A DNA stretch of 47,797 bases, from positions 1-47,797 of the forward strand of contig JAQVJP010000006.1 of assembly GCA_028695145.1 (NCBI GenBank). Direction: 5' to 3'. Position 1 is the stretch's first letter, and the number at the start of each line of letters is the position of its first letter. The position numbers and the translations under genes were made by a program. This document shows, piece by piece, positions 12,850-46,403 of the stretch. The stretch comes from Eubacteriales bacterium (GTDB lineage Bacteria > Bacillota > Clostridia > Saccharofermentanales > UBA5734). Below the pieces are notes generated by a model. It was not told the DNA's origin, searched no databases, and saw only the letters and a program-made list of their open reading frames with translations.

Positions 12850-12855
12850 CTGTTG

Positions 12856-13158: not shown

Positions 13159-13176
13159 GAAACGGGGGATGAACAG

Positions 13177-14451: not shown

Positions 14452-14480
14452 ATACCTTATAGAGACTGGGGGCACATGAA

Positions 14481-14786: not shown

Positions 14787-14823
14787 AACAGACCTGATCT
14801 GAGAGCCTGAAGGAGAAATGACT

Positions 14824-26604: not shown

Positions 26605-26687
26605 GCGGATGTGGTGGAATTGGCAGACACGCTGGATTTAGGTTCCAGTGCGAGAGCATGCAGGTTCAAGTCCTGTCATCCGCACCA
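26605..26687 (+). tRNA. tRNA-Leu, anticodon UAG
   Basis: An 83-base gene with encoded CCA. Acceptor arms GCGGATG / CATCCGC pair at both ends, the anticodon stem CTGGA / TCCAG (26632-26636 with 26644-26648) encloses a loop with TAG at 26639-26641, a long variable arm follows as in class II tRNAs, and the T-loop is GGTTCAAGTCC. It reads CUN leucine codons. It marks the left flank of the integrated element. Confidence 0.96.
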
Positions 26688-27115: not shown

Positions 27116-28825
27116 TCAACTCGCCAGCGTGTTGGGAACGTAGTTCACAATCACGCCTTTTCTGGTGTTCACAGAGACTTCGGGATAAGGCAAGGGCAGC
27201 ATGTCGGGAATGTCGATTGCGCCGATGCAGTTATAGCGAATCGTCAGCCGCTGTTCCCAAACGCCGTTGACCTTCTCGGCCTGATGGACTTCGATGCGCT
27301 CTACAAGCTCATTGAGCATCCGGGGCGTGAGCTTTTTTGCCCGTGTGTATTTGCGGACGGTGGAGATGAACATATCCGCTGTGACGGACTTGCTGACCGA
27401 TTTATCGAGCGCGTTTCTGAGCGCCTTGATTTTCTCGGTCAGTTCTTTTTGTTCATCCTCATACTTGATCGACATGCGGGCAAACCGTTCATCTGAGATT
27501 TTTCCCGAAGCATTGTCCTCATAGATTTTCTCAAACAACGTATCCAGCTCTCTGTCGCGGGCTTGAAGCGCGTATAGCTCTTTCTGCATAGACTGGCGCT
27601 CTGTAACGGCGCTCTGCTGGGAATACCCCATGACTGCCTCCGCAAACATCTTCTCGTATTGGCTGGCGAATTTGGTGAGCCTGCGGATTTCCCCAAGTAC
27701 GACCTGTTCCAGAAAGTCCACCCGGATATAATGGGTTGAATTGCAAGTACCCCGGTTGCCCTTATAGTTGGAGCAGTTGAAATACTTAATCTCCGGGTTC
27801 CCCTGGTTGAAGTGGAAGTGGAGGTTTTTCCCGCAGTCGGCACAGACAAGCAGGCCGGAAAACATGCAGGTGTCGCCATCGTTGGTCTTGCGCTTGCGGA
27901 GCTTCCCGCGCTTTTGCTGTACCTGTTCCCATACGGTACGCTCGATAATGGCCTCATGCACATCGCGGAATATTACCCAGTTCTCACGGTCATTCTCAAT
28001 CCGCTTTTTGAGCTTGTAGGACTTTGAGTAGGTCTTGAAATTGAGAATGTCGCCGCAATACTCTTGTGAGGACAGGATTTTAATGACCGAGGAGCTGTTC
28101 CACTTGGTAGGCGGCGCGTCCTTGCGCTTGCCGGGGCGGTTGATGCCCTTGCTCTGCCAGTAAGCCATCGGGGTCAGCACCCCTTCTTCCTCCAACCGTG
28201 TGGCGATTTGCTCCGTTCCAAGGCCATCCATCGTCATGCGATAAATGCGGCGAACAACGGCAGCGGGTTCATCGTCCACAAGCCAATGCTTCAGGTTGTC
28301 CGGGTCTTTCATGTACCCATAAGGCGGCTGGCCCATCGGCTCACCGGCGTTCCCCTTGATTTTGTTGCTAATTCTCCGCTTTTTGCTGATGTCCCGCGCA
28401 TACCATTCGTTGAACAGGTTTTTTATCGGGGCCATCTCGCTTTCACCCTCGGCGGTGTCGATGCCATCGGAAACGGCCACAAGCCGGATGTCGTGTTCCG
28501 GGAAAAATTCTTCCATGAGCCTGCCGACTTCAATATAGTTGCGTCCCAAGCGCGACATATCCTTGACAAAAACAGCGGCGGCGTGACCTTTCTCCAATTC
28601 TGCTATCATCGCATTGAAGCCGGGGCGATCCATCGTGACGCCGGAAACACCGTCATCGCAAAATGTCACAAGGTTCGTATAGCCCATGTCCTTCGCTGCT
28701 TTGGTGAGCAGTTTCTTTTGGTTCTGGATGCTGTAACTGTCGCCATCGAGGTTGTCATCGCGGGAAAGACGCGGATACAAAAACGCGGTATCCTCGCGGT
28801 TTTTTCTACTACTTGACTGTTTCAC
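27116..28825 (-). CDS. Large serine recombinase (TnpX/TndX-like)
   Basis: A 569-aa site-specific recombinase, likely the integrase/excisionase of the element. The resolvase domain (about 13-155) starts AFLYPRLSRDD with the catalytic Ser at residue 21, and has the usual YSIQNQ, DDGVSGVTMDRPGFNAMI and KDMSRLGRNYIE. The recombinase domain follows (PPYGYMKDP, ILSSQEYCGDILNF), then a zinc ribbon (CADCGKNLHF, FNCSNY, GTCNS) and a C-terminal coiled coil. Start GTG at 28825 has AAAGGAGG four bases ahead. It matches Tn4451/Tn5397-type enzymes rather than phage integrases. Its genes end a few bases from the tRNA-Leu terminator. Confidence 0.92.
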   Translation of the reverse strand: MKQSSSRKNREDTAFLYPRLSRDDNLDGDSYSIQNQKKLLTKAAKDMGYTNLVTFCDDGVSGVTMDRPGFNAMIAELEKGHAAAVFVKDMSRLGRNYIEVGRLMEEFFPEHDIRLVAVSDGIDTAEGESEMAPIKNLFNEWYARDISKKRRISNKIKGNAGEPMGQPPYGYMKDPDNLKHWLVDDEPAAVVRRIYRMTMDGLGTEQIATRLEEEGVLTPMAYWQSKGINRPGKRKDAPPTKWNSSSVIKILSSQEYCGDILNFKTYSKSYKLKKRIENDRENWVIFRDVHEAIIERTVWEQVQQKRGKLRKRKTNDGDTCMFSGLLVCADCGKNLHFHFNQGNPEIKYFNCSNYKGNRGTCNSTHYIRVDFLEQVVLGEIRRLTKFASQYEKMFAEAVMGYSQQSAVTERQSMQKELYALQARDRELDTLFEKIYEDNASGKISDERFARMSIKYEDEQKELTEKIKALRNALDKSVSKSVTADMFISTVRKYTRAKKLTPRMLNELVERIEVHQAEKVNGVWEQRLTIRYNCIGAIDIPDMLPLPYPEVSVNTRKGVIVNYVPNTLAS

Positions 28826-31005: not shown

Positions 31006-32355
31006 TTACTGCTTCGGCGCCGCGTAAAGCTCGTCAACGCTCATACCGAAGTGTTCCTGCACAAACTGTTCAAAATGAGCAAGCGCGGGATAGTACAGCT
31101 CCTTGCCCTGGGAATCAAAGGCATCACCAAACATCCGATGTACCGTCTCAATGTCGGGATCTTCCCACCCCAATTCGTCCTTTTCGGGATAGTAGTCGTA
31201 AGCGCAGCTCTCGCCGTCCTTATCCACCGATATGTGATACCTGCCATCTTTGGCGTGATAGGTGATACGCAGGCTGTAGCCCTTTATATCGGTATCCATA
31301 AACTCGATGTTCCAGTCCTCGTTAAACTCGCCCCATTCCGGCCTCGCGATGGCGACGGAGACATAATGCGGCTCACGATCTTCAAAGACGCCGCACATTC
31401 CGGCGTCGTCAAAGCCAAAGCCAAGCGCGGTCAGAGACCCCTCGGCGATGGGCTGCAAGTACTTATTCGATTGCACAATGGTAATTGCGCCGCCCTCGCT
31501 GTCAACGATGAGCTTGTTGCCTATCGCGTTATTATAGGCGATATAGGTCTCCATGTTTCCGTTCCATTCCCACCAGTCGCTATTCACGTTTGAGGCGATA
31601 TTCTGTCGGATCGTCTCAGCGTCGGGGACATAATAGGGGACTGAGGTTTGAACTTCGTTTATGTACAGATTTACGCTGATGCCGCACTCACTAAAATCTG
31701 TTGCGGTATCAAAATACGCGGCGATTGGAGACAAGGCCTCTATACTGTAGTTATCCTGCACAAGCTGGGTATACTTTTCCAACTCGTCATCGGGAACATA
31801 ATACGTCAGCTCGATGAGGCAGCCCGCGCCCGTAAAGCCTTGGTTGCCATCGGACTCCACATATTCATAGCGGTTGTCGTCGGGGTTGGCCGGACGGATG
31901 GTAACAATACGACCGTCCGCGCCGGTAAACTCCAAGTATTGGCCGTTATTGCGGTACGCCTCTACCAACTCGCCCTTTCCGCCCTCGTCAAGCCCAAGCC
32001 CGGCTACGTCCGCATGGTAGGCGATACAGGCGTATACGGCGTTGCTGGTCATGGAGAGCGTAAAGGGATTTTTGCCTTCCAGTTTCGCCACACCCTTTTC
32101 AAATCTTGCTTCAAATACAGTACCGGGCATGTCCATGCCGAAGGTATTAAACTCCGCTTCAAAAATATCCAATGCCGCATAGGGTTCCCGCTCCGGCGTG
32201 GGTTCCGGCGGCATACTGTTGTCCGGTGTTTCCGCAGGGTCAGACGTCGCCGGCGGCGATTCCGGCGGCTCTGACGGTTCGACAGGCTGATTTGAGCAGG
32301 CCGTGAGCGTGCAGAGCAGCACGACGATGAGCAAGGCCGATAGAATTCGTTTCAT
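31006..32355 (-). CDS. Cargo lipoprotein A, unknown domain
   Basis: A 449-aa secreted lipoprotein. The signal peptide MKRILSALLIVVLLCTLTAC ends in the lipobox LTAC (Cys20). A Pro/Glu/Ser-rich linker follows to about residue 60, typical for spanning the cell wall. The rest is a soluble domain rich in Tyr, Asp and Gly (for example ECGISVNLYINEVQTSVPYY) that I do not recognise. GGAGG (32367-32363) is seven bases before the ATG at 32355; the frame continues to 32475 without support. It is the last gene of the ten-gene leftward run and ends at the shared terminator. The 123-base gap before it could hold a promoter, though none is clear. Confidence 0.8.
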   Translation of the reverse strand: MKRILSALLIVVLLCTLTACSNQPVEPSEPPESPPATSDPAETPDNSMPPEPTPEREPYAALDIFEAEFNTFGMDMPGTVFEARFEKGVAKLEGKNPFTLSMTSNAVYACIAYHADVAGLGLDEGGKGELVEAYRNNGQYLEFTGADGRIVTIRPANPDDNRYEYVESDGNQGFTGAGCLIELTYYVPDDELEKYTQLVQDNYSIEALSPIAAYFDTATDFSECGISVNLYINEVQTSVPYYVPDAETIRQNIASNVNSDWWEWNGNMETYIAYNNAIGNKLIVDSEGGAITIVQSNKYLQPIAEGSLTALGFGFDDAGMCGVFEDREPHYVSVAIARPEWGEFNEDWNIEFMDTDIKGYSLRITYHAKDGRYHISVDKDGESCAYDYYPEKDELGWEDPDIETVHRMFGDAFDSQGKELYYPALAHFEQFVQEHFGMSVDELYAAPKQ

Positions 32356-32478
32356 GTTCATTCCTCCGATTTTAATTTTCTGAAAGCGATGGAAGCACGG
32401 TGACGCCTCCACACTCACGTTCGCATACCCACATTGAATACCTTCTGTTTTATTGCTCTGATATGACGTCTCCATCTG

Positions 32479-33234
32479 CTAATCAATAACCAGCAGCTTT
32501 AACGATTCATCCATGACTTCAAGGAACAATCCATCCTGTCGCCTTGTCAGCACGCATTTGCCGTTGACATCCAAGGCGGTATTGTCAAGGCTCATGCTTT
32601 CGCCGGATTGGTAGGGCCGATCCGCCGTTTCCCACGCAAGCAGCTCACCGTCGGGATAGCTGTAATAAGAAACCCGCCATGTGGGAGTATAGAGCGTTAC
32701 CGAGTTGCCCGCCGGATAATAATACGTTTTGCCGCCGTCCAGATACCCGGTTGATTCAATCAATGCGTAGACGATGGGAAGATCGCCATCCTGCAAGGCC
32801 GCCAGCTTTTCTTCGGAGGCAAATTCGCCGCCATAGCCGCGCAGCAGATATTCCAAGTCTCTGGTGTCAAGCTCCAGCTCATCCGGCAGAGCGTCGTTTG
32901 TGAGAAATTCCTCCCGCGTCATATCGGGGATGTATTGTTGACGATTGATATAGGTTTCCCCCGGCACGCGCAGCCAGAACACCGGCCCGGTGAAATCCTC
33001 CGCCGACAGGACGTTGGGGTTGGTTTCGAGGTTGAGTGCCTCCGGGTATTCCGTTGCCCGGTTTTTCAAGACGTCATTTTCTATCTTTTCCGTTGGGAGA
33101 ACGCTATCCCAGACATTGAAAAAGGCATCACGATTCGCTTCAAGATTCGGTATCTCATATTTTTTCGCGCAGCCGCCGACTAAAAGCAGAGTCGCGGCCA
33201 GTATCCAGATTAGCAACTTGTGCAGCTTTTTCAC
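32479..33234 (-). CDS. Cargo lipoprotein B, unknown domain
   Basis: A 251-aa lipoprotein with signal KKLHKLLIWILAATLLLVGGC, lipobox LVGGC. The mature part has no linker and begins AKKYEIPNLEANRDAFFNVW. Tyr-rich segments (DGGKTYYYPAGNSVTLYTP, WRVSYYSYPDGELL) suggest a beta-sheet domain. No family recognised. GTG at 33234 is preceded by GGAGG at six bases; an ATG at 33333 would lie inside the preceding gene and place the signal internally. It starts 32 bases after lipoprotein C. Confidence 0.8.
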   Translation of the reverse strand: MKKLHKLLIWILAATLLLVGGCAKKYEIPNLEANRDAFFNVWDSVLPTEKIENDVLKNRATEYPEALNLETNPNVLSAEDFTGPVFWLRVPGETYINRQQYIPDMTREEFLTNDALPDELELDTRDLEYLLRGYGGEFASEEKLAALQDGDLPIVYALIESTGYLDGGKTYYYPAGNSVTLYTPTWRVSYYSYPDGELLAWETADRPYQSGESMSLDNTALDVNGKCVLTRRQDGLFLEVMDESLKLLVID

Positions 33235-33266
33235 CGTTTGCCTCCTTGAAGTACATATCTGCTCAT

Positions 33267-34157
33267 TTATCTGCTTCCCGTGCCACCGCAGACGGGACAG
33301 GTCGTGCGGCCGCCGCCGCAGCAGTGGGAGCAAACAGCCCTGTTGCTCTGCATGGTGTAGCTGCCGGTTATGGGGTCGCGTACCTGAACATACTGCGCCC
33401 GCCCGCCTGTGCCGGAGCAGGAGGTGCAGATGGCTCTCCCTGTACCGCCGCAGCTATGACAAGCCTGTGCGCCGGTGTAGAGCGCCTCACCCAAGCCCGG
33501 AACAGCCTCGGCGGAGATTGAAAGTCCGTTTATGCCTGAGTTTTCGGCGTCTATTGCCGTATCCGCCGTAATCGTAACGCCGCTCCTGTCAGCGGTGAAG
33601 TCCACCACGGCATCCAGCAGGTGCATGAAGGTGTAGCTCGGCACATAAAAGCAGCCGTCGATGTATTCCGGGGCTGTGCCGCCAAGTGTGGTTTTTCCGA
33701 CTGCAATATCGCTGTTGTCGCTCTTGCAGGTGATGACCTGACCGTTTACCCGCGTCGTTAAAGCCTCCAGATGCTCGTCGAACAGGCACTCAACGCCCAG
33801 ATGTTCCAAAATCTCCACAATGGGGTAATACGCGCCTTTCGGTTCATCTGGGTAGGTGTAGGCATCATGATCGGTATCGGCCAGCTCGCCGTTTATGTAT
33901 ATCTGATGATGGATTCGCCCATCGTTATCTTCAAAGGGATACTCCGCTTCTTTTTCCTCCGGCTCAGTGGAAGTGGGAGGCGCTGTCGCTTCGCTATCGG
34001 AATCCGGGCTTGGTTCGACGGACTGAGACGGTGCGTCGGTCTGCGAGGGAGCGGAGGTCGGCTCATTCGATGGAGCGGCCACACTCTGATCGCCGGAACA
34101 GGCGCAGAGCGTCAGGCAGAGCAACAAAGCAATCGCTGACAAAATCGTTCTTTTCAT
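33267..34157 (-). CDS. Cargo lipoprotein C: copper-amine-oxidase-like domain plus DnaJ-type zinc finger
   Basis: A 296-aa secreted lipoprotein. The signal ends LCLTLCAC (Cys20). A Ser/Pro/Thr/Glu linker runs to about residue 80. About 95-215 resembles the copper-amine-oxidase N-terminal domain often found on clostridial surface proteins (YYPIVEILEHLGVECLFDEH, later CFYVPSYTFMHLLDAVVDF). The last 64 residues (233-296) hold four CxxCxGxG-type motifs: CHSCGGTG, CTSCSGTG, CSHCCGGG and CPVCGGTG, the arrangement of the DnaJ cysteine-rich domain, without any J-domain. In DnaJ this binds two zinc ions and client protein, so an extracytoplasmic metal or thiol role is possible. The start at 34157 fits the signal peptide; the ribosome site (AGCGGG) is weak. 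Confidence 0.8.
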   Translation of the reverse strand: MKRTILSAIALLLCLTLCACSGDQSVAAPSNEPTSAPSQTDAPSQSVEPSPDSDSEATAPPTSTEPEEKEAEYPFEDNDGRIHHQIYINGELADTDHDAYTYPDEPKGAYYPIVEILEHLGVECLFDEHLEALTTRVNGQVITCKSDNSDIAVGKTTLGGTAPEYIDGCFYVPSYTFMHLLDAVVDFTADRSGVTITADTAIDAENSGINGLSISAEAVPGLGEALYTGAQACHSCGGTGRAICTSCSGTGGRAQYVQVRDPITGSYTMQSNRAVCSHCCGGGRTTCPVCGGTGSR

Positions 34158-34185: not shown

Positions 34186-34446
34186 TTATTCATCATCGTC
34201 GTAAGGCTCAATATCAACCTCAGTCGCGCCGCAGATCGAACAGGTGCGCCGGGTAATCAGTATGTAGCCCTCCACATTGGGGTCGCCGTCGCCTTGCACC
34301 TCGTGCGTACAATTCCAGCTATGGCCTGTCAAGCCGCATTCTTCCTGCTTTTCCCTCATAAGCCGCAGCTTCTCTTTTTCGATTTGCTCTTGCTCCTGCT
34401 GCGCAGCGAGCTTTTTCTCCCGCCAGCGGCGATATAGCTTCAGCAT
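34186..34446 (-). CDS. Small coiled-coil/Cys-pair cargo protein D
   Basis: An 86-aa protein with a basic, Gln/Glu-rich helical first half (LAAQQEQEQIEKEKLRLMR) and a second half with GHSWNCTHE and TCSICGATEVDIEPY, a probable zinc ribbon formed by the Cys and His residues. No signal or membrane segment. GGGGG is about nine bases before the ATG. Function unknown. It belongs to a set of four small Cys-rich proteins in a row (34186-35672). Confidence 0.65.
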   Translation of the reverse strand: MLKLYRRWREKKLAAQQEQEQIEKEKLRLMREKQEECGLTGHSWNCTHEVQGDGDPNVEGYILITRRTCSICGATEVDIEPYDDDE

Positions 34447-34471: not shown

Positions 34472-34792
34472 CTATCGCAGGCCGCCTTTCTCTCCGATTA
34501 CCGCACCAACAGGCATTCTGAAGTCGATTCGCTCATCCATGCAGAAGGTGCTGTTTTCGTGGAGGCAGCCCTCACATAGCTCTGGGTAATTCAAGCAGGC
34601 ATATATGGTGTGATAGGCCGTGGGCTGCGCCTGCCAGCAGTGATAGCCGTCGTTACTTTGGATAAACTTCACATTTTGCCGGTCGCGCTCGTCAATAGTA
34701 AAGTCCTTTGCGCAGGCCCAGCAATGCAGCTCTGGGCCGCTTTTCATTTCACTGCTCATCCCACAATGGGGACAGATTACTTTACGTTTCAC
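34472..34792 (-). CDS. Small zinc-ribbon cargo protein E
   Basis: A 106-aa protein opening KRKVICPHCGMSSEMKSGP and ELHCWACAKDF, a four-Cys zinc ribbon (CPHC, CWAC). The C-terminal half has further Cys (YACLNYPELCEGC, STFC). The GTG at 34792 is preceded by AGGTGG; the frame extends to 34876 over the end of the next gene, which I reject. No known function. Confidence 0.65.
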   Translation of the reverse strand: MKRKVICPHCGMSSEMKSGPELHCWACAKDFTIDERDRQNVKFIQSNDGYHCWQAQPTAYHTIYACLNYPELCEGCLHENSTFCMDERIDFRMPVGAVIGEKGGLR

Positions 34793-34811
34793 AGCGCCAC
34801 CTACTGTCTTA

Positions 34812-35336
34812 TTAATCGGGCCACAGCAGAGTACCACAGCGGTTACATACAATACTCTCTGCGGCGTCAAACTCATTTCTGGTCACAGTGACAGAAACAT
34901 AGCAACTGCATTTTGGGCAATACATCGCACTGTCGCAGGGGATGCAGCCACTTCGATATTCCCGTCCATAATTCGGGTCTTTGGGGTTATCGCATATCTC
35001 CGCCAGATGGGGAGTTACCTTGCCGCAGCGACTGCAATACCTCTTGCGTAGCTGTGTGTACTTGCCCGGGTAACGATCAACCACCTTGCCCTGCCCGCAA
35101 TGGATGCAAAAGCCGCCCTCATCGTACACATGCTCCACCGCTCCGCAGACCGTGCATTTACAGCCGTCCCAAACATGAGGCTCTGTTTTTTGCCGGCAAA
35201 TAATACAGGCATGGCCATTCTTTCCTCTGATGTCAAACCGATGCCCTTCGTCCCGTATCTCGCCGCAGCGTACACATTTGCACCCATCCCAAAAATGACC
35301 GACCTTTTTGCATTTAAGTTTTTTGAATATGCCCAT
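34812..35336 (-). CDS. Multi-zinc-ribbon cargo protein F
   Basis: A 174-aa protein made of repeated metal-binding units. HFWDGCKCVRCGEIRDEGH and HVWDGCKCTVCGAVEHVYDE are two copies of an H-x-W-D-G-C-K-C-x2-C-G unit, spaced about 40 residues apart, with CIIC and CIHC pairs completing them. Two more ribbons follow (CSRCGKVTPH, YCPKCSCYV, CNRCGTLLW). GGAGG is about six bases before the ATG. Repeats of this kind occur in small clostridial and phage zinc proteins of unknown function. Confidence 0.72.
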   Translation of the reverse strand: MGIFKKLKCKKVGHFWDGCKCVRCGEIRDEGHRFDIRGKNGHACIICRQKTEPHVWDGCKCTVCGAVEHVYDEGGFCIHCGQGKVVDRYPGKYTQLRKRYCSRCGKVTPHLAEICDNPKDPNYGREYRSGCIPCDSAMYCPKCSCYVSVTVTRNEFDAAESIVCNRCGTLLWPD

Positions 35337-35348
35337 ATTCCACCTCCG

Positions 35349-35672
35349 TTACCAGCCCCCACGGACGCCGCCGCTGCCAATTCCCTCGTCGGAATTTGCC
35401 ATGCTTTCCTCATAGGACAACTTCGCGCGGGGTAGCGGGGCAGGGTCTCCGCAGCGGACGCACTTGCCGTCCTTGTAATCGTGTGAGAAGATATTGATGT
35501 CGCCGCAGACCTCGCATTTATCGTAGCAGCGATTGGGAACGCGTTGCCATTTGTGCATCGTCTGGCTCTTGCCGCACCGCTTACAGCGATAAAAGCAGTT
35601 TCCGAAGGTCTGATAGGGCGCAGGCTTAATCAAAACCCACTTATGCCCGAAGATTTTACAAAGAAGCTCCAT
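35349..35672 (-). CDS. Zinc-ribbon cargo protein G
   Basis: A 107-aa protein with FYRCKRCGKSQTMHKWQ, CYDKCEVCGDINIFSHDY and GKCVRCGDPAPLPRAKLS; the H-x-(W/Y)-x-x-G-K-C-x2-C-G pattern is shared with protein F, so the two are probably paralogs. The tail is Gly/Ser-rich (GIGSGGVRGG). AGGAGG is eight bases before the ATG. It lies 12 bases ahead of F. Confidence 0.7.
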   Translation of the reverse strand: MELLCKIFGHKWVLIKPAPYQTFGNCFYRCKRCGKSQTMHKWQRVPNRCYDKCEVCGDINIFSHDYKDGKCVRCGDPAPLPRAKLSYEESMANSDEGIGSGGVRGGW

Positions 35673-35749
35673 TGTTTCATCCTCCTGATAGCTGTTTCTG
35701 TGCTTGTTGCATGGGTGACCTATCGTGTTACGCTGTCATGTGATTGACC

Positions 35750-36478
35750 TTACTTACCAAACAATCCGTTTAGATATTGTACGATCTCATCATCGTAAAT
35801 ACTGACCTCGTATGTCCAAACTTTGCCCTTTTTGTTGAGGCGGGAACTGGACTCGGTAGCTGTGAATCTCTGCTCGTCTACAAGCGCCCAATCCGAGAGC
35901 CGGATGACCTCGATAATCATATACTCCGAAGTTGCGCCAGCCACATTCTTGCCGGAGGAGTCCTCCCAAAAACCAATGCGTTCCGTTCCTATTCGGAAAG
36001 CGACCACAGTATTGACCTTATCAGGATTGCCTTCAAAGCCTTCAAGAATATCTCTCGCTTCGTATTGGTATGTGTCCTTTGCGCGGTCATATAGGATGTA
36101 CCTTGCATTTTCCGGCAGCGCCGCGCCGGTTTCGGAATACTGTTCACGCATATAGGGACGAAGCGCCTTGTCGATACGGGAGGTATTCGACTGCGTGGTG
36201 AGCAAACTTACGCCGACCGACAATACGAGAAGCAGGGCAACACTTCCAATGATAATTAACACTTTTGAGAACCTGCACTTTGGGTTTTTGGCCGTTCCTC
36301 GCTTGGTCTTGGTAATTCCCCAAATCCCAAGCGCGAGCAACACAAAGCCAACCATGAAAAACTGCAAATTTCGCAGCATAAACCCGTTTTCAAAGCTGCC
36401 GACAGCCGCGAGATAAACGCAGTACGCGATCACTCCGATTCCAGCAAACAATGAAAAGATTGATAAAATGCGTTTCAA
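35750..36478 (-). CDS. Cargo membrane protein H with three TM helices
   Basis: A 242-aa protein with hydrophobic helices at about residues 4-27, 38-56 and 72-93, followed by a 145-residue soluble domain (DKALRPYMREQYSETG, KVWTYEVSIYDDEIVQYLNG). No family recognised. The TTG at 36478 was chosen because AAGGGGG lies seven bases ahead and the first helix begins right after; a start at 36664 would overlap gene I by 150 bases. Confidence 0.68.
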   Translation of the reverse strand: MKRILSIFSLFAGIGVIAYCVYLAAVGSFENGFMLRNLQFFMVGFVLLALGIWGITKTKRGTAKNPKCRFSKVLIIIGSVALLLVLSVGVSLLTTQSNTSRIDKALRPYMREQYSETGAALPENARYILYDRAKDTYQYEARDILEGFEGNPDKVNTVVAFRIGTERIGFWEDSSGKNVAGATSEYMIIEVIRLSDWALVDEQRFTATESSSRLNKKGKVWTYEVSIYDDEIVQYLNGLFGK

Positions 36479-36513
36479 AATCTCGCCCCCTTCGTAGCGG
36501 TCATTCGTCTGTA

Positions 36514-37089
36514 CTAACCATACTTGCGCCGAATTAGAATAGCCAACAGCAGGAACAAACCGCATACTGCGATGCAGATCATTTGAAACCTTCTCACAGG
36601 CGGGTAATTTGGCATTGAGATATAGATCATTAAGGCGTCTGCGAGTAGCGACGCGATGAGCCATCCCTTTCCAAAAACGGAGTCTGCGTTATACTCCCGG
36701 TCTTTCCCGATATTATTGGTGCTCAATTCCATTCTACCCGCGAAATAGAACACAAAAGAAAAAACGAAAGCAACGATGATATACAATATACCAACCGTAT
36801 ATCTCATCCAAGGCCTCACGATGGCGTTGCCGACGATAAACGATATGCCCGCAAGCAGACCAGCGACCGTCATCATACAGCCGTATAGGGTACTGTTGGC
36901 TGTCCGTTTCTCGAACGCCTGTCGGCTGATAGGTTGTGCGCTCCTCTCAGTTTTTGGGAAGCCCACCCTGTAACCGTCAGGCATTGGTCTGCCGCAATGC
37001 GGGCAGCAGCCCTTCGACACCCGCGAATACTCAACGCTGCCAAGCTCGACATAGCCCCCTATGGGTTTCTTGCAATACGGGCAATTCAT
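36514..37089 (-). CDS. Cargo membrane protein I: N-terminal zinc ribbon plus four TM helices
   Basis: A 191-aa protein beginning MNCPYCKKPIGG with the second pair CCPHCGRPMP, giving a cytoplasmic zinc ribbon, then four hydrophobic helices (about 70-92, 96-118, 142-160 and 168-187) ending with RRKYG. Function unknown. Its ATG overlaps the stop of regulator J (ATGA), with GGAGG seven bases ahead, so the two are co-translated. Confidence 0.75.
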   Translation of the reverse strand: MNCPYCKKPIGGYVELGSVEYSRVSKGCCPHCGRPMPDGYRVGFPKTERSAQPISRQAFEKRTANSTLYGCMMTVAGLLAGISFIVGNAIVRPWMRYTVGILYIIVAFVFSFVFYFAGRMELSTNNIGKDREYNADSVFGKGWLIASLLADALMIYISMPNYPPVRRFQMICIAVCGLFLLLAILIRRKYG

Positions 37090-38648
37090 AGAGTCGCCTC
37101 CTCATTAGCCTCGCAGATGTGCCGCTCATGCCTTATTGTCTTTTCCAGACGCTCCGTCACATCCTGCAAAATGCTCATCACATTGGCGCGGCTGCCGACG
37201 CCGCCCGCGCCCTGCGCCCAAAGAGCGTCGAAGCGCGCGCCGAACTCACGCAGGAGCATGGTCTGGTCGGAGTAGATCATCACGGGGTCTTTGGCTTGCC
37301 AGTTATTGATACAGAGGCTGCGCCCCTGTTTTAGATGCCAACAGCTATTCTGCTGAAGGTCGGATATATCGTCCAGGATCAACAGATTGAAGCTCGGCAC
37401 ATTTTCCAGATACTCAATATATCCCTTTAGGATGGCCGCGCAGCCCTCCGCGTCCAGCTCGATATAGCCTCGCTCCATGAAGTAAAGACCGGCCATGCGG
37501 CAAAGGCCGCGCTGGGCAATATCGTTCAGCCTTTTCAGGGAAAGCACCTCGCGGAACTCCACACCCTGCTCCAGATTGTTGTCCATGCCGCTTTTGAAGC
37601 GCACAAACTCCGTGCTGCGCCATGTGTACTCATCCGCATCGTGACCGCGTGTTTTCAAAAAGCGGTCATAGGCCGACATTGGCATATACATGGGATTGAT
37701 GCTGTCCTTCACTACGTCCAGCGCACCGGGAGTACAAAACTCCATGTAGAGGATTTCAAGGATATTGCGGGAGTAATTATCGTCGTAAATATTCAAAATT
37801 GGTTGAGCGAAGCGGGAGGTAGCCTCGAAGCTCCGCTGCATCCCCGCGATAAAGTCCGGGTCTGTGATGAACACCGACACCGGCGTTGCGTCGTTTTCTA
37901 TGGTTTCGGTAACTAAGACGGCGTTGCCGTCCGGGAATATCATGTGGAGCTGATTCGTCACGGTTTGCGTCAGCCCATGCACCACAAGGAGCTGAACGTG
38001 GCCGGAGACAATCGGCTCTATGTAGGCGTCAAGAATCTCCGAAAGCGCCTGCGTATCGCCGGACACGCAGACGATCATGCGGATGTGCAGATCACGCTTG
38101 GCTAATGCATTTTGCAGCAGGGAGGAAATATCCCCGTTTATTATCGTCCTGATACGGTCACTGGAGAGGAATATATCTATTGTCTCCCCTTGCTTCTGCG
38201 CCGATAAAACCGGCTCCAGCGCAAACAAGAGTTCCAGATAGCCGTGCTTTGCAGCGCCGTGTGTTCTGTTGAATACTGTCTGCGGCGTTGCAGGTTTTTG
38301 GATGTTTGTGATGGGCGCGGAACCGAGAGAGCGACGAAGAATATCCCCGTCTGTCGCCAACCACAGAATGAGGTTCTGCTTGAAACTGCGGACAGTAGAC
38401 ATATCTGTCGGCAGTCCGGCCTCCGTGAATCGTTCCTTGAGCCATTCCACATCCTGCGCGCGCTTGCTGCTGGTCAGAATATAATCCGCGATGGCGTCCA
38501 TCTGAGGGCTTGCTACCTTAAATTGACGGTGGCCGGAGAGATAGCGGCTTATCAGCGAAGGGTCGATAGCGAGCGCCTTTGCCACTGCAAGATTGGTAAG
38601 TCCGAGATATTCAAAAATCGCTTTCAAATTCTTATTCGGAGTTGCCAT
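37086..38648 (-). CDS. 520-aa helix-turn-helix regulator J
   Basis: The first gene of the ten-gene leftward run. Residues about 5-45 (NLKAIFEYLGLTNLAVAKAL, then IDPSLISRYLSGHRQFK) form an XRE-like DNA-binding domain. The large remainder contains IDIFLSSDRIRTIINGDISS, RMIVCVSGDTQALSEILDAY and LLILDDISDLQQNSCWHLKQ; it looks like a folded alpha/beta sensor domain, but I do not recognise the family. The protein has no membrane segment. ATG 38648 follows AAAGGACGG. It probably regulates its own operon; the effector is unknown. Confidence 0.7.
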   Translation of the reverse strand: MATPNKNLKAIFEYLGLTNLAVAKALAIDPSLISRYLSGHRQFKVASPQMDAIADYILTSSKRAQDVEWLKERFTEAGLPTDMSTVRSFKQNLILWLATDGDILRRSLGSAPITNIQKPATPQTVFNRTHGAAKHGYLELLFALEPVLSAQKQGETIDIFLSSDRIRTIINGDISSLLQNALAKRDLHIRMIVCVSGDTQALSEILDAYIEPIVSGHVQLLVVHGLTQTVTNQLHMIFPDGNAVLVTETIENDATPVSVFITDPDFIAGMQRSFEATSRFAQPILNIYDDNYSRNILEILYMEFCTPGALDVVKDSINPMYMPMSAYDRFLKTRGHDADEYTWRSTEFVRFKSGMDNNLEQGVEFREVLSLKRLNDIAQRGLCRMAGLYFMERGYIELDAEGCAAILKGYIEYLENVPSFNLLILDDISDLQQNSCWHLKQGRSLCINNWQAKDPVMIYSDQTMLLREFGARFDALWAQGAGGVGSRANVMSILQDVTERLEKTIRHERHICEANEEATL

Positions 38649-38705
38649 ATCTGCCCGTCCTTTCAAGGTGTTATTGTGAACTGTTGTTTCATGTTATTAT
38701 GGCTT

Positions 38706-38866: not shown

Positions 38867-40486
38867 TCATTCGTATGTAAACGTAAAATGCGCCTGCTCT
38901 TTGATTTCCTCTGCGTTATCCCGCAGGCTTTCTCCCAGCAGAACAGTTTGTAACTCCGGCAAAATCAAAAGTGGTGAAAGGTCGCCGTCTACCACGCCGC
39001 TAAGCTGAATGAACTTCAAACGCCGGAGCTGTTCAATGCCGTCCAATGTATCGAATGTGAGCTGATACAGATTGAGATTTGTCAGCATATCCAGCCCCGC
39101 AAAGGCTGCCGGAGTGCGCGCCAATGTCGCACCGGCATCCAAATCAACCAGCCGTGGGCAGGATGAGAGCTGTGAAAAGTCGCTGACAAGGATGCCGAAC
39201 AGCGACAGCTTTTCAAGTCGCTTCAAGCCGTACAGTGGGGAAATGTCCTCAATGGGATTGTTCTTGACGATAATTACCCTAAGCTGTGGCAGCGAAGCCA
39301 GAGGGGTCAGGTCGTCCACCTGCTGCATCGCCACAGCAACGCATTGCAGATTCGGAAGCATAACAAGGTCGGACAAAGATTTGATAGGCCCGGTACTCAT
39401 CCTGTTTTCTGCAAACAGCCCGTAAGATATTTCATTCATTTCTTCTTCTGTTTTGGCAATGACCTCACTGCCGAAGATATACAGCTCGGTGACGGAGAGC
39501 AATTCTTCCTCTGTTATAAGCTCGTCGCCCGATTTTCCAAGCTGGAGACGGACGGCCTGCTCTATCAGCGGCTCGGTAAACTGAACGCCGGCAGGCGGCG
39601 GGGAAAGCACATCGGTATAACGGCCAATAGCAAAACCGGCGCAGAGGAACAGGGCACAGAGAAGCGAGGCTGTAAGGGTACGCGCCGCCGCTCTCTGACG
39701 CCTTCCATCTGAGCGAAGCAGAGCGGATTTCAGTTCTCCCGCAGAGGCGTAGCGCCCGCGCGGGGAGAAGTCGGTGCATTTGCGGTATATACGCGACAGC
39801 CGTTTGTTCTTGATCGCTGCCGCCGCCGCGTCAAGGTCGGTCTGTCCCGTCAATATGTAGCCCATCACCACGCCGAGAGAGAACAGGTCGGTGCGCTGAT
39901 CGGTCTGCGAAAAACCGTATTGCTCCGGCGGCGCAAATTCCTGTGTTCCATAGAAAACAGTATCCTTCTTTGCCTGCGCATCATACACGCGAGAAATGCC
40001 AAAGTCGATGAGCTTTACCTTACCGTCGTCAGTCAGAATGATATTCTGCGGCTTCAAGTCGCGGTGGATGACAGGCGGGGACTGGCTGTGCAAATAGCTC
40101 AGTATGTCGCAGAGCTGGAGCAGCACCGTCATCGCCTCCGGCTCTGAAAGCGGTGCTTCCTCCAAAAGTTCTGCCAATGTCACGCCGGGTACATACTCCC
40201 GGACGACGCAAAGCACGGTATCGCTTTCATACTCGCCGCGGAAGTGGGGCAGACCATCGTGCCGCAGAGAGCTTAATATGCGGCCCTCGTCCTCTCGTGA
40301 CAGCAGGGATTTATCCATGTAGCATTTCGCTACGGCAAACTTCCCGGACTGCCTGTCCTTCACATACACGGTCTCACATTCCGGCTTGACCGAAAGCCCC
40401 TCCAAAATCTCATAGCGGGCAAGGAAGCCAGGAGGATAGCGCCCCTCGTCATATTCGGCGGCCAGCTTATCTTTCTGTGTGTTCAT
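38867..40486 (-). CDS. Transmembrane Ser/Thr kinase with leucine-rich outer domain
   Basis: A 539-aa receptor-type kinase. The cytoplasmic kinase domain (about 25-255) has the ATP-anchoring Lys54 in FAVAKCYMD, HRDLKPQN (141-148), DFG (161-163) and a Pro-Glu motif FAPPEQYG; it appears catalytically complete. One transmembrane helix spans about 269-288. The outer part (about 300-539) contains repeated leucine-rich units (LTPLASLPQLRVIIVKNNPI, ISPLYGLKRLEKLSLFG, MLTNLNLYQLTFDTLDGI) like an internalin-type LRR. It should sense an outside ligand or partner and phosphorylate proteins inside. Its start overlaps gene L by 20 bases, implying coupling. Confidence 0.88.
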   Translation of the reverse strand: MNTQKDKLAAEYDEGRYPPGFLARYEILEGLSVKPECETVYVKDRQSGKFAVAKCYMDKSLLSREDEGRILSSLRHDGLPHFRGEYESDTVLCVVREYVPGVTLAELLEEAPLSEPEAMTVLLQLCDILSYLHSQSPPVIHRDLKPQNIILTDDGKVKLIDFGISRVYDAQAKKDTVFYGTQEFAPPEQYGFSQTDQRTDLFSLGVVMGYILTGQTDLDAAAAAIKNKRLSRIYRKCTDFSPRGRYASAGELKSALLRSDGRRQRAAARTLTASLLCALFLCAGFAIGRYTDVLSPPPAGVQFTEPLIEQAVRLQLGKSGDELITEEELLSVTELYIFGSEVIAKTEEEMNEISYGLFAENRMSTGPIKSLSDLVMLPNLQCVAVAMQQVDDLTPLASLPQLRVIIVKNNPIEDISPLYGLKRLEKLSLFGILVSDFSQLSSCPRLVDLDAGATLARTPAAFAGLDMLTNLNLYQLTFDTLDGIEQLRRLKFIQLSGVVDGDLSPLLILPELQTVLLGESLRDNAEEIKEQAHFTFTYE

Positions 40487-41263: not shown

Positions 41264-42589
41264 CTATTTGTTGAATAACAGGTTGTTACACCTCATGCAA
41301 CGGTCATTTTGTATGGGATTCATCATGGAGCAGACATTGCAGTAGATAATGCGGTCTTTGGATTTATCATATTTTTCGTATGTACCGAATCTTGGATGAA
41401 ACCGCACCCTGTCACCAACGGAAAGGTAATCGTACATATCCCGCCCGCTGTCCTTTTCCACAATGGTCTTTTTCTTGCCTGCGTCGGTGTTGATGATCGT
41501 GGTGTATTCCGTATAGGTTCTGTAATTATCATCCTCGCCGCCCCTATGCTCACTTTTCTCCTTGCTGTATTTATTGACGACTACGCCCTCCCACATGGGC
41601 TGCTTGGTCTTTCGCAGCGCCAGCAGGTTAATGACCAGCATAACAAGGGCGATACCCACGCCGATGACAAGAGACTCACCGAAGGGAAAATCATCCATCA
41701 ACAGACCGGCGACGGGAAAGCCGATGAGCGGCACGAAAACCAATATCCACATACAGCCAATAGAGAATTTCTTATTTTTCTGCGCGGCGGCCAGTATTTC
41801 CGGGCAGTTATACCTGTCGGAGAAGCCGATTAGCCCCGCGCCGCCCTGTGGGGGCGGTGAAGCTGCCGTTCGGCTCGGTTGTACGGTCTCCGGCGCTGCC
41901 GGATTCACGGCATTGCCGCAACCGATACAGAATTCGGCTCCCTCCGGCAGCTCTGCGCCGCAGGCCGTACACACGCTGGGGACGCTGGCTTGTGTTTTTG
42001 CGCCGCAGGCTGAACAGAAAGCCGCGCCATCCGGCAGTTTGCTTCCACAGTTGGGACAAAACATATCCGTATCACTCCTTGCTTCGATTATTTGAGGCGC
42101 GGCGGGTTTCCTCGCCGCCGTTTTCTTTTTTCCGCCTCTGGCTGTGCGTATGACAAGCAGCAGCAAAAGCAGACAACCGATGGGAGCGAAGATATGATAG
42201 ATGATCCCCGCTTCTCCTATCTCGTCAAATTCGCACAGCATGGCGGGCTTATTAACATAAGGGAAAACCTCAAGGTGGCGAATGCGCTCGGAGCGCGTTT
42301 CGCCATCGTCCAAGCTCGGCCACGCCTCGTCGCTGCCATATATCACATAGCCACGGTATTCCTTACCGTTTGCCATAAACCAATAGCCCTTGGAAACGGT
42401 ACGGGAGCGGTTTGGTTCCGCATCCGTGTCATCCAGGCGACTGTCATAGCTATCCACCGTACCCATGACGCTCTCACCCCAAATCGCCAGCGCAAGGATG
42501 CTGATACTGGTATATATAGCGAACAAAAGCACGGCACAAATTAGAATAAGTATGGGTAGTGGTATTTTGTTGGTCTTTTTCTTGGCCAC
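41264..42589 (-). CDS. Zinc-ribbon membrane protein N (possible two-part fusion)
   Basis: A 441-aa protein. N-terminal TM helix (about 10-37), a soluble part containing YWFMANGKEYRGYVIYG, a second TM (about 133-148) and then, from residue 176, a double zinc ribbon (MFCPNCGSKLPDGAAFCSAC, later CTACGAELPEGAEFCIGC), two more TM helices and a final CNVCSMMNPIQNDRCMRC. An internal ATG at 42064 has AAGGAG ten bases ahead and would begin exactly at the zinc ribbon, so the gene may be a fusion or make two products. The GTG start follows GGAGG. The first part is reminiscent of DUF3592 proteins. Last gene of the right-hand run. Confidence 0.72.
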   Translation of the reverse strand: MAKKKTNKIPLPILILICAVLLFAIYTSISILALAIWGESVMGTVDSYDSRLDDTDAEPNRSRTVSKGYWFMANGKEYRGYVIYGSDEAWPSLDDGETRSERIRHLEVFPYVNKPAMLCEFDEIGEAGIIYHIFAPIGCLLLLLLVIRTARGGKKKTAARKPAAPQIIEARSDTDMFCPNCGSKLPDGAAFCSACGAKTQASVPSVCTACGAELPEGAEFCIGCGNAVNPAAPETVQPSRTAASPPPQGGAGLIGFSDRYNCPEILAAAQKNKKFSIGCMWILVFVPLIGFPVAGLLMDDFPFGESLVIGVGIALVMLVINLLALRKTKQPMWEGVVVNKYSKEKSEHRGGEDDNYRTYTEYTTIINTDAGKKKTIVEKDSGRDMYDYLSVGDRVRFHPRFGTYEKYDKSKDRIIYCNVCSMMNPIQNDRCMRCNNLLFNK

Positions 42590-42606
42590 GGTTGCCCTCC
42601 TGTTGA

Positions 42607-44862
42607 TTATTTCACCCGTTGATAACGATTCCCGCTGCCGCTTTGAATATAGTCGCTCCCATTTTCCTGTGAGCCATAGAACCTGCTGTCATTTATCCAA
42701 ATTCGTCCGTCCGTGTCATTGTCGTCACTTCCCGCTATTTCAAGAGAATCGTTTTCCTTGTGGAAAACGTAGGTACTATATGTAGTGACGGGGATAAGCT
42801 CTCCCGTAGCCGCAGGGGCGGGCGCTGTATAGCTGCAGTTTGTGCCGTCGATAATTTTCAGCGTAATGACGGTATCAGCGTCCAGATAGCGCCAACTGCC
42901 CTCAAACCATTTGGCATCAATCCCTGTGTTACCCAGCGGTATCACCGTGACCTTTTCCGTCACCTTAAAGGTCTGTGTCAATATCGGGTCGTCCTCAAAC
43001 TCGTCGTCACCCTTGCTCCATAGTCGAAGCTGGGTGGGGATGCCTGCCTGCATATACCCCAGGATGGTGGCGTCAATAGAAGCACGTCCGTCCTTGTCCA
43101 GAACGGCCGTCCAGTTTTCGTCTACGAGGGCATCGGGTCGGCAGATGTCAACGATACAGCCCGCGTATTTGCTCTTTTCGCCGTCGGGGATTTCCTCAAT
43201 GATTTTAACCTCCAGCGGCGCGTTGAGCGCCTTGCGCAGCTCCGTAGCGTTTGCACTGAACGCCTTGCGACTGTCGTAGCGTATCTTCTTCATAGCATCC
43301 TCCAGCACCGGCTGGAGATACTCGCCCAAGCGAGCCATATACTGCTCTATGCAATATTCTTTGGCGGCGTCCGTTTCGGGAAGAAGCCCCGTGGTGTAGG
43401 CGTGCAGCCCAGCTTCGTTGGTGGCTACAAGCTGCTCCTCCGGGTTGTCGAAGAAGTAACGAGAGCTGTAATTCTCCATAATACCGCGCAGAGCGGCGTT
43501 GAATTTCTTCGGGTCATCGCCGCGTGTTTTGTACAGCCCCATGATTCTTGCGTACCATTCGGCCTCTGTCCACGGGTGTATTTCCTCGTTGTAGGCGATG
43601 ACCACATTAAACAGGGCGTCCTTATAGGTTTGGTCGGCTGCGACCATGAACTTGTTCAGAGAGTAGTCGAGGGCGATCACACCCAACATGGAGAGCTGTA
43701 CCATGCCGGTGGTTATTCTTTTGTAATCCAGCACCGCCACACCCACATTGTAGGACAGCTTATACGCTTCCGCCGCCACTGTTTCGGCGGACTCGTCGCC
43801 TTTATATGCGTCAAGCATCGTCTCGCCGAGCGACAATGCGGAAAGTCCAAGGAGCATATAGCCGGTTTTCTCCATGATGCTAGTAAATAGTTTGTTGCCG
43901 GCGCCCTGTGCATCCAGTTCGCCCACGTCGGCCAGCCAGCCCAAGACCTCATGTAGCAACCCAGCTTCAGCCTCACCAAGACTCGGAATGTTCAAGAGCT
44001 GTCCGTAGAACTCGCGGAGCAGACTGTCGCCCACCTCACCATGCTGCCCGGCCTGTTCATACTCTCGCAGGATCGCCATCGCGGTTTCATCGTCCAGTCG
44101 CTTGTTGCTGAATTTGGATAACAAAGCGTAGGGTGAGCCTGCGTCCTGCAAGGTTACGGTGCAGTATTCCGAAAGATGGTCTGTGGTGATGGTAACGGTG
44201 TTGTCGGCTGTGTTTACGGTGTAGTCCGCAAGCTCCCATTCGCCGGTTTCGGAGTTGTAATGCTCCGCAAGCACGGAGCCTTCCTCATCAGCGGAATCGG
44301 TTTCGCTCTCGTCATAGGGCAGCGTGATAGTCAAAAGGCCGTCAAATTCGGTGCGTTCACCGGCTGAAATGTCATATGCCGTGCGTGTGCCGCCCTCTAT
44401 GCTGTCACTGTCGGCGGACAGCTCCTTGACCGACACCTTTTCTCCCGTCATTGCATTATATGGGCCGAAATCCACCGTCACGCCGCTGTCGGTCGAAATT
44501 GACGTCTGTCCCTCCTGCAAGGTAAAGCTATCGCTTCTGCTAAGCCCTCCGCCAACCATAAAACCCGGCCAGCCGTAGAGAGCCACCGCCGCGATCTGTA
44601 TGACGAGCAAGACGGAAAGCACGATGCAAAGCGTATTTCGCCCGCCGTTTCTTTTCGGTTTTGCGGCGCTTTCCCGTTTTGTCGTCGCAGCGGGCGGGGT
44701 GCGTTTTTGATGCTGTGCTGCGGCTGCTGGCTGTGGCACAGGCTTCGGCTGTGCTGCGGGAACCGGCTTCGCGGGCGCGTCAAGCACCGCCGCGCCGCAT
44801 TTGGCGCAGAAACGAGCGCCGGTATGAAGCTCCTTGCCGCAATTCGTACAATAGTTTCCCAC
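42607..44862 (-). CDS. Large zinc-ribbon/TM surface protein O
   Basis: A 751-aa protein. A cytoplasmic zinc ribbon (YCTNCGKELHTGARFCAKCG, residues 4-23), an Ala/Pro/Lys linker and one TM helix (about 77-98) anchor a large outer part. The middle is helical (LLREFYGQLLNIPSLGEAEA). Toward the C-terminus, KIIEEIPDGEKSKYAG and ILGYMQAGIPTQLRLWSKGD match protein R at the right edge, so the two are paralogs. It ends in a GSW-type beta domain (FEGSWRYLDADTVITLKI). GTG at 44862 has GGAGG seven bases ahead. Function unknown. Confidence 0.75.
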   Translation of the reverse strand: MGNYCTNCGKELHTGARFCAKCGAAVLDAPAKPVPAAQPKPVPQPAAAAQHQKRTPPAATTKRESAAKPKRNGGRNTLCIVLSVLLVIQIAAVALYGWPGFMVGGGLSRSDSFTLQEGQTSISTDSGVTVDFGPYNAMTGEKVSVKELSADSDSIEGGTRTAYDISAGERTEFDGLLTITLPYDESETDSADEEGSVLAEHYNSETGEWELADYTVNTADNTVTITTDHLSEYCTVTLQDAGSPYALLSKFSNKRLDDETAMAILREYEQAGQHGEVGDSLLREFYGQLLNIPSLGEAEAGLLHEVLGWLADVGELDAQGAGNKLFTSIMEKTGYMLLGLSALSLGETMLDAYKGDESAETVAAEAYKLSYNVGVAVLDYKRITTGMVQLSMLGVIALDYSLNKFMVAADQTYKDALFNVVIAYNEEIHPWTEAEWYARIMGLYKTRGDDPKKFNAALRGIMENYSSRYFFDNPEEQLVATNEAGLHAYTTGLLPETDAAKEYCIEQYMARLGEYLQPVLEDAMKKIRYDSRKAFSANATELRKALNAPLEVKIIEEIPDGEKSKYAGCIVDICRPDALVDENWTAVLDKDGRASIDATILGYMQAGIPTQLRLWSKGDDEFEDDPILTQTFKVTEKVTVIPLGNTGIDAKWFEGSWRYLDADTVITLKIIDGTNCSYTAPAPAATGELIPVTTYSTYVFHKENDSLEIAGSDDNDTDGRIWINDSRFYGSQENGSDYIQSGSGNRYQRVK

Positions 44863-44874
44863 GTCTGCACCTCC

Positions 44875-45588
44875 TTATGGCCGCACCAGCGCCACAAGCG
44901 CCGGTATTCCGTCGGGCGTATCCATCGTGCCGATGGCATACTGTTTTTCGTTTTGCGTATAGAACTGCGTCAGGCGAATGGTTCCCGCGCCGGACGCCCA
45001 CAGGCCGCCGCTTTCCCACTTGCCGTTGAATATTCCGTCCTCCATATCCGTTTCGTCGAAGCTCTCTCCCTCGTTGGCCCAAAAAATCTGATACCAGTCG
45101 AGGGTGAGGCTCAGGCTCTCCGCAGTACCCGCAAGGGAGACATTGAGAAACTCCATAGCGCCCGCGTCGAATTCGGTGTTGGGGTCGTAAATAATCAGAG
45201 CTTTCCAGCTCCCGGTCAGCGAGCCAATATTGTCGATGATACTCGCATCAGATGGAACGCCGTTATAAGCTACGTCCTCCGTGTACCAGAGAAAGTCCGA
45301 CAGATCGGGGCGTTCCTCCGTGGATAAGTCCGCGCCTGTTTCCTCCGGCGATGGAGTATCGCCGCTTTCTGTGGTCGCGGGCGGGATTTTTTCCTCCGGC
45401 GACGGTGTGACAGGAGGCACTTCTTCCTCTGGCGACGGTGTGACGGGCGCTGTTAGCTCCGTCCCCGGTACAAGAGATTCTTTTCCGTCGGCTGACCGCA
45501 GATTGGGCGGTATGGTAAGAACGCCTATCACAAGCATCAGCAGATTGGCTGCAATAAGCACGGCGAACAAGCCTTTCTTCAATTTCAT
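44875..45588 (-). CDS. Signal-anchored protein P with Pro-Ser-Pro-Glu repeats
   Basis: A 237-aa protein with an N-terminal membrane anchor (LKKGLFAVLIAANLLMLVIG) lacking a lipobox. Residues about 45-80 contain three copies of TPSPEE(E/K), encoded by near-identical DNA repeats at 45346-45445. The outer domain begins SDFLWYTEDVAYNGVPSD and has GSWKALIIYDPN, a beta-type GSW domain like that at the end of protein O. The ATG at 45588 has AAGGAGG ahead and overlaps the Lgt-like stop (TGATG). The longer frame to 46176 runs antisense-like through the Lgt gene in another frame and is rejected. Confidence 0.78.
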   Translation of the reverse strand: MKLKKGLFAVLIAANLLMLVIGVLTIPPNLRSADGKESLVPGTELTAPVTPSPEEEVPPVTPSPEEKIPPATTESGDTPSPEETGADLSTEERPDLSDFLWYTEDVAYNGVPSDASIIDNIGSLTGSWKALIIYDPNTEFDAGAMEFLNVSLAGTAESLSLTLDWYQIFWANEGESFDETDMEDGIFNGKWESGGLWASGAGTIRLTQFYTQNEKQYAIGTMDTPDGIPALVALVRP

Positions 45589-46403
45589 CAGTCCTCCTTG
45601 ATTCGCTTTGTCTCGGACGGAGTAAGCCTTGCCCTCTCTCGTCGCAATACTATGGCTATGCCCAGAAGAATTACAATGACATACAGCAGTGGGTAAACGA
45701 CGGTTTTGATGATGGCGGGATAAGCCAAGGCGCGCAGGGGCAGCACGGCCAGTCTTACGGCTGAAAACCACGCGGCGTAAAGAAGAAAGCTCGCCCCCTG
45801 CCGCAGGCGCAGACGCTTGACCAGCCAAAAAACCAGAGGCAGGCCCAGCGCGGCCCCGGTCAGCTCGTAGAGCTGTGTGGGATGAACGGCGCGGGAGGCG
45901 GAGAGGAAGGGCAGCCATTCGCTCAGCGCCTGCTGATAGCCAGCCTTGGACGGAAACACCACGCCCAGCGGGCTGGAGGTCGCCCGTCCCGCGCAGCAGC
46001 CGTTCAGGAAGCACCCCACCCTGGCCAGACAGAAAGCGACACCGCCGGGGACTGTCATGGCGTCCAGACCGGCCCACGGGGACAGGCCCCATTGCCGCGC
46101 GGCGATGACCAGCGCCGCCCCGGTGCCCAGAACGCCGCCGTAGAAGGACAGCCCGGCCAAACGCAGGCTGTACCATTTCAGCTCACCCTGAAAATTGCCC
46201 GGATTGGCGGCCGTGTTCCACAGCCGCGCCCCGATGAGAAAGGCGGCAGTCATGATCATCAGCAGAGCTATGGCTCGCCCCCGCCCCAGCCCCGTCCGCA
46301 GAAGAGCGGGCAGGGCCAGGGCACAGCCGATCATGGCGGCCAGCAGGGCGCAGAAATTGTAAGCCGGTATCTGCCAGACACCTATTTCCAGCAGCGGGTA
46401 CAT
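45588..46403 (-). CDS. Divergent prolipoprotein diacylglyceryl transferase (Lgt-like)
   Basis: A 271-aa protein with about seven hydrophobic helices. Lgt landmarks are GLSFYGG (84-90), RVGCFLNGCCAGR (128-140) and HPTQLYE (174-180). True Lgt attaches a diacylglyceryl group to the lipobox Cys. Here the active-site His of the H-G-G-L motif is Tyr, and the motif reads NGCCAGR, as in a divergent family of Lgt-like proteins in clostridia and Bacteroidota. It may lipidate the lipoproteins of this cluster or do a different transfer; this is inferred. The start ATG overlaps the stop of protein R (TAATG) and has no ribosome site of its own. Confidence 0.8.
   Translation of the reverse strand: MYPLLEIGVWQIPAYNFCALLAAMIGCALALPALLRTGLGRGRAIALLMIMTAAFLIGARLWNTAANPGNFQGELKWYSLRLAGLSFYGGVLGTGAALVIAARQWGLSPWAGLDAMTVPGGVAFCLARVGCFLNGCCAGRATSSPLGVVFPSKAGYQQALSEWLPFLSASRAVHPTQLYELTGAALGLPLVFWLVKRLRLRQGASFLLYAAWFSAVRLAVLPLRALAYPAIIKTVVYPLLYVIVILLGIAIVLRRERARLTPSETKRIKED

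Follow-up and report, generated by a model that had tools for sequence, protein, structure and literature searches.

What do four CxxCxGxG motifs of the kind found in the DnaJ zinc finger do at the end of a protein that carries an export signal? The question is raised by a single gene in the window, the whole stretch of 47,797 nucleotides that was analysed, whose host is an anaerobic bacterium. The encoded lipoprotein may assist the folding or assembly of proteins on the outer side of this host's cell membrane, and folding help of that kind is poorly known in Gram-positive anaerobes, which tend to avoid exported cysteines. The gene and the parts of its product are located as follows, with the basis of each assignment in brackets.

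33267..34157, minus strand: lipoprotein gene, including the stop codon (open reading frame; full-length relatives)
34098..34157, minus strand: signal peptide, residues 1–20, with lipobox LCAC and Cys20 as the predicted lipidation site (hydrophobicity and lipobox patterns, nine members)
33942..34097, minus strand: low-complexity Ser/Pro/Glu/Ala linker, residues 21–72 (composition, identity, pLDDT)
33573..33896, minus strand: CuAO_N1-like domain (PF07833), residues 88–195 (Pfam; AlphaFold2 and Foldseek)
33438..33461, minus strand: motif 1, CHSCGGTG, residues 233–240 (exact match; C and G invariant)
33405..33428, minus strand: motif 2, CTSCSGTG, residues 244–251 (exact match; C and G invariant)
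33309..33332, minus strand: motif 3, CSHCCGGG, residues 276–283 (exact match; C and G invariant in intact members)
33276..33299, minus strand: motif 4, CPVCGGTG, residues 287–294 (exact match; C and G invariant)

The open reading frame starts with an ATG at 34157, ends with a stop codon at 33267–33269 and encodes a product of 296 residues, in which a signal peptide, a linker, the CuAO_N1-like domain, a short spacer and the C-terminal Cys domain follow one another. The sequence-only reading had described an exported lipoprotein with a copper-amine-oxidase-like middle and the CxxCxGxG domain last, and this architecture is supported by sequence and by the model of the middle domain, with the lipid anchor as a prediction. 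The signal peptide, MKRTILSAIALLLCLTLCAC, contains the single strongly hydrophobic segment of the protein and is followed by a linker composed to 84% of S/T/P/E/Q/A/G. The lipobox LCAC fits the relaxed consensus and not the strict one. Among the relatives, three have strict lipoboxes (LAAC, LSAC and LSSC) and four others relaxed ones; one member, L007, has no lipobox at the expected site in the pattern check across the nine members. Signal and linker together have the lowest mean pairwise identity of the protein (0.31), and AlphaFold2 gives pLDDT values below 50 across residues 19–69.

The middle domain matches PF07833 at residues 88–195 with E=4e-5 and 24.0 bits, just below the Pfam cutoff of 24.2. 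When the full protein was modelled with AlphaFold2, residues 73–199 were obtained with moderate confidence, and otherwise only the signal helix and a hairpin. The modelled part matches the N-terminal domain of the E. coli amine oxidase over about 71 columns with an rmsd of 2.1 Å (E=4e-3), and Foldseek ranks 1–18 are all occupied by that domain. Amine oxidase activity was considered and rejected, as Pfam finds the N-terminal domain alone and no catalytic domain. One Gram-positive anaerobe was found to have PF07833 proteins without a catalytic domain in its surface proteome (PMC4137172), and in the superoxide dismutase (SOD) of Paenibacillus lautus (8IMD) a domain of this type gives dimerisation and stability to an exported enzyme (PMC10432803).

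All four motifs that had been claimed to close the protein are exact, at residues 233, 244, 276 and 287, the last one stopping two residues short of the C-terminus. They are not due to chance, because 20,000 shuffles of the protein's own residues never gave more than one CxxCxGxG motif each; a chance cysteine pattern is rejected by these shuffles and by the conservation of the family. The motifs are spaced 11/32/11 in the lipoprotein family and 11/34/11 in the paralogue L008b. A search of the phylum sample at the DNA level for two pairs, with motifs three residues apart and pairs 32 residues apart, found the lipoprotein family only, the remaining matches to the motif-pair pattern being single pairs or long repeat proteins. 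In the same phylum, L065 and L066 (genomes G074 and G113) combine nine to ten CxxCxGxG motifs with ankyrin-like N-terminal repeats. The Cys domain itself was modelled with pLDDT below 50 from an alignment of six sequences.

Eight relatives of the lipoprotein were collected, and in seven of them the eight motif cysteines and eight motif glycines are invariant. This set is unchanged across eight intact domains, in which the non-motif positions average 38% identity. Full-length relatives share 58–69% identity with the window's protein, and one paralogue 31%. Among 84,980 species genomes scanned, relatives turned up in Clostridia metagenome-assembled genomes and in Lutispora saccharofermentans; three others, more distant, came from the 398-genome phylum sample (genomes G203, G204 and G302). 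The distribution is sporadic, since intact members occur in the host's own genome and in 5 of the 397 other genomes of the phylum sample, with none in the rest of the 188 genomes of the host's order. No relatives were found among viral contigs, plasmids or phages. Decayed copies also exist: L010 is frameshifted, and a remnant without the Cys domain is present in a single genome from the same class. The reading frame of L008a is intact apart from the loss of motif 3 and one half of motif 4. The full domain may therefore not be needed in that genome, although it also holds L008b, an intact, divergent paralogue.

Whether the domain is related to DnaJ was addressed with profiles in both directions. 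The profile comparison suggested by the sequence-only reading gave a weak score on PF00684 (DnaJ_CXXCXGXG), 10.7 bits for the whole protein and 14.5 bits for the domain alone, both below the cutoff of 32.7. Every family member matches PF00684 (best E=1.2e-6), the window's copy scoring lowest on the DnaJ model. When motif-preserving shuffles were scored on a DnaJ Cys-domain HMM, the real score was reached by 0 of 400 for L006, L007 and L009, by 0.25% for L008b, by 2.75% for the copy in the window and by 3.5–11.5% for L013–L015. In the reverse test, the family HMM scored real DnaJs above their own motif-preserving shuffles, and hhalign aligned the family with the DnaJ Cys domain at a probability of 97.8%, with the four motifs collinear. 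Because the scores exceed those of shuffles that keep the motifs and the four motifs align in order, the domain and the zinc finger of DnaJ are probably related, as judged from sequence, although the domain has the geometry of the J-less plastid type. The term "DnaJ-type" is thus kept for the relationship and given up for the form: the spacing is 17/26/14 in all 16 true DnaJs counted (15 of the phylum and the host's own), and neither Pfam nor NCBIfam finds a J-domain (HPD) in the 296 residues, where signal peptide, linker and CuAO_N1-like domain stand instead. Convergence of an independent CxxCxGxG repeat on the motif, a matter of origin compatible with any proposed function, is favoured by the low Pfam DnaJ score of the window's member, far below threshold, by the different spacing and by the presence of other CxxCxGxG repeat proteins in the phylum. 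Given the shuffle results in both directions and the PF00684 match of all members, we regard such an origin as improbable.

The nearest geometry is found among plastid proteins. Sequence profiles retrieve plastid EMB2737, DnaJ homologues and BSD2 as relatives in the PDB, and the spacings counted in the PDB-chain alignments are 11/24/11 for the BSD2 chain and 11/58/11 for the EMB2737 chain. PF25436 (BSD2_CRD) is matched by all eight members at E values up to 1 (best 1.3e-5), the window's domain reaching 17.4 bits, below the cutoff of 27.

The neighbourhood of the gene contains the following features.

38867..40486, minus strand: Ser/Thr kinase with a predicted transmembrane segment and C-terminal LRRs, upstream in the run (Pkinase E=1e-33, LRR_4 E=2.5e-9)
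37086..38666, minus strand: regulator, 526 residues, with an N-terminal XRE-like HTH and a TrmB/PLD-like alpha-beta region (HTH_3, Foldseek, co-occurrence)
34812..36664, minus strand: Cys-rich 174-residue and 107-residue proteins and a 304-residue membrane protein (Pfam; L010 synteny)
34472..34876, minus strand: small Cys-rich zinc-ribbon-like protein of the same run (weak zinc-ribbon matches; relatives in L006, 72%, and L010, 90%)
34186..34446, minus strand: small conserved gene next to the lipoprotein gene on its upstream side, 86 residues with one CxxC (relatives at the corresponding position)
32479–33333 and 31006–32475, minus strand: two downstream predicted lipoprotein genes (open reading frames)
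27116..28825, minus strand: large serine recombinase, Resolvase-Recombinase-DUF4368 (Pfam)
26605..26687, plus strand: tRNA-Leu, likely island edge (ARAGORN; synteny limit)

Several of these genes accompany the lipoprotein elsewhere. Relatives of the 86-residue gene occupy the same position in L006 (60%) and L010 (74%), and L010 keeps the order of the 34812..36664 genes at 86–93% identity. The regulator is present in four genomes of the 398-genome sample, all of them among the six with the lipoprotein. With the host's own genome left out, all three remaining regulator genomes lie within the lipoprotein's 5 of 397, with a chance of about 1e-6 by simple counting that ignores shared ancestry. The two genes are adjacent or separated by a few genes in the window, L006, L007, L086, L087 and L008, in the last beside the paralogue. 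The regulator relative in L006 matches HTH_3 with E=2e-5, and the model of the regulator, of low-to-moderate confidence, resembles TrmB (2f5t, Foldseek E=1.9e-4) and PLD-like folds. A second copy or paralogue of the regulator (G302; L094) adjoins an LRR lipoprotein, which suggests regulator–lipoprotein pairs with swappable partners. Near the lipoprotein copies of L008, positions 11225–15659 encode a ThiF/E1-like protein, an E2 (UQ_con)-membrane-FHA fusion and a protein with a prokaryotic RING and zinc ribbon, a possible ubiquitin-like conjugation cluster.

Synteny with related genomes stops at 26687, at the end of the tRNA-Leu, and the large serine recombinase follows; the whole gene run is therefore probably part of an integrated island that extends past the contig at its other end. 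Elsewhere in the window, large zinc-ribbon membrane proteins are encoded at 41264–47791, where a 462-residue protein (46403–47791) resembles the C-terminal part of a 751-residue one (42607–44862) at 27% identity, a likely duplication. A 2,852-residue protein at 4200–12758 has GH94 and glucoamylase-like domains and resembles cyclic glucan synthase-type enzymes.

In the DnaJ zinc finger, motifs 1 and 4 and motifs 2 and 3 pair to bind two zinc ions. Our preferred reading, to which we assign a probability of roughly 45%, is that the lipoprotein acts outside the membrane as a membrane-tethered, zinc-structured, client-binding holdase or assembly factor with a J-less DnaJ-like finger. A lipid anchor would hold it on the outer face of the membrane, the flexible linker would raise it, and the CuAO_N1-like domain would probably dimerise or stabilise it. 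The eight cysteines would most likely bind two zinc ions with the motifs paired as in DnaJ, forming a two-armed zinc hairpin that may present a surface to unfolded or unassembled clients, as BSD2/PSA2-type plastid proteins do. Cysteine tends to be excluded from exported proteins of obligate anaerobes (PMC12453122), so the eight that are retained imply a use, likely as ligands. Since a protein that lacks a J-domain and lies outside the cell cannot recruit DnaK and ATP, the role would be passive, perhaps with thiol exchange. The clients may be exported products of the lipoprotein's own gene run, under the linked HTH-PLD-like regulator. Several observations weigh against this reading. Motif repeats can converge, and the window's copy is the one lowest on the DnaJ model; L008a has lost part of the Cys domain; and the compared loci revealed no conserved client, as the two downstream lipoproteins have no relatives there and are not conserved with the finger lipoprotein.

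The main rival is an adaptor in a surface signalling complex, in which the zinc finger would serve as a structural docking module reporting to the linked kinase-LRR protein or regulator, instead of as a chaperone of unfolded clients. Linkage to the HTH-PLD-like regulator, and in the window and L006 to the kinase with LRRs (52% identity between the two), is as expected for such a role, the G302 regulator paralogue that adjoins an LRR lipoprotein points the same way, and the two L008 paralogues in one cluster would fit a set of dedicated partners. The kinase, however, was found linked in the window and L006 only and is absent from the G203 and G302 loci that were read, and no partner domain was identified, which makes an adaptor fairly unlikely in our view. 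Redox activity comes next: as an extracytoplasmic thiol-disulfide oxidoreductase or redox sensor, the protein would cycle its CxxC pairs between zinc-thiolate, dithiol and disulfide, exchanging disulfides with exported proteins or sensing oxidants. In vitro, DnaJ-type and ZnJ6-type Cys domains do act as thiol oxidases or reductases (PMC5818400, PMC7865324), but ZnJ2, with a closely similar motif set, had no reductase activity (PMC5818400). The gene runs read contain no thioredoxin-type partner, and the retention of all eight cysteines is expected of ligands and not of one active CxxC, so that we hold a redox function to be quite unlikely. Last, the eight invariant cysteines of a lipoprotein, together with several small Cys-rich proteins in the same run, might capture zinc or another soft metal at the surface for uptake, buffering or detoxification. 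This is very unlikely, as the gene runs read show no obvious gene for metal transport or efflux and buffering would leave the conserved glycines and the fixed 11-residue spacing unexplained.

The holdase or assembly factor may be set in a wider frame, which we consider somewhat unlikely as a whole: an extracytoplasmic bacterial counterpart of the J-less plastid chaperones, lipid-anchored and ATP-independent, that serves surface protein assembly and has spread with a ligand-sensing regulator on mobile islands. If true, an eight-cysteine finger at the surface would be a bacterial zinc finger that works beyond the cytoplasm and needs neither DnaK nor ATP, and plastid proteins of the BSD2/PSA2/ORANGE type would gain a bacterial model. 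Each part is known by itself; a BSD2-spaced J-less finger joined to an export signal and CuAO_N1 does not occur in the libraries and papers that were searched, and the open-licence papers among which we looked describe no bacterial exported protein with the four-CxxCxGxG set.

Compared with known systems, the lipoprotein shares with the DnaJ PF00684 domain the four CxxCxGxG motifs in order and a similarity beyond them. It differs from DnaJ (Hsp40 type I) in its spacing (11/32/11 versus 17/26/14), in its predicted export, in lacking the J-domain and the C-terminal substrate domains, and in scoring under the Pfam cutoff. Like the exported PF07833 fusions of Gram-positives, such as the P. lautus SOD, it has a signal peptide, a CuAO_N1-like domain and a C-terminal functional domain, which is of Cys-rich zinc-finger type here and a Cys-less SOD there. 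The closest likeness is to the BSD2 type (BSD2/PF25436, ZnJ2, ZnJ6, LQY1, PSA2, ORANGE), which has four motifs, often C-terminal, and no J-domain; the 11-residue spacing within each motif pair is that of BSD2 and EMB2737, whereas the gap between the pairs is longer than in BSD2 (32 versus 24). The J-less ZnJ2 (PMC5818400) and ZnJ6 (PMC7865324) bind zinc and have holdase activity, preventing aggregation. Even the location has a parallel: DnaJ Cys domains had been called normally cytoplasmic, to which PSA2 adds a caveat. This J-less protein with a DnaJ-like zinc finger is reported to act on photosystem I in the thylakoid lumen (PMC4806229), which is topologically an exported place. ZnJ6 and PSA2 lie at or inside the thylakoid membrane, as the lipoprotein is predicted to lie at its own; unlike the plastid proteins, it is bacterial, fused to a CuAO_N1-like domain and predicted to be exported and lipid-anchored.
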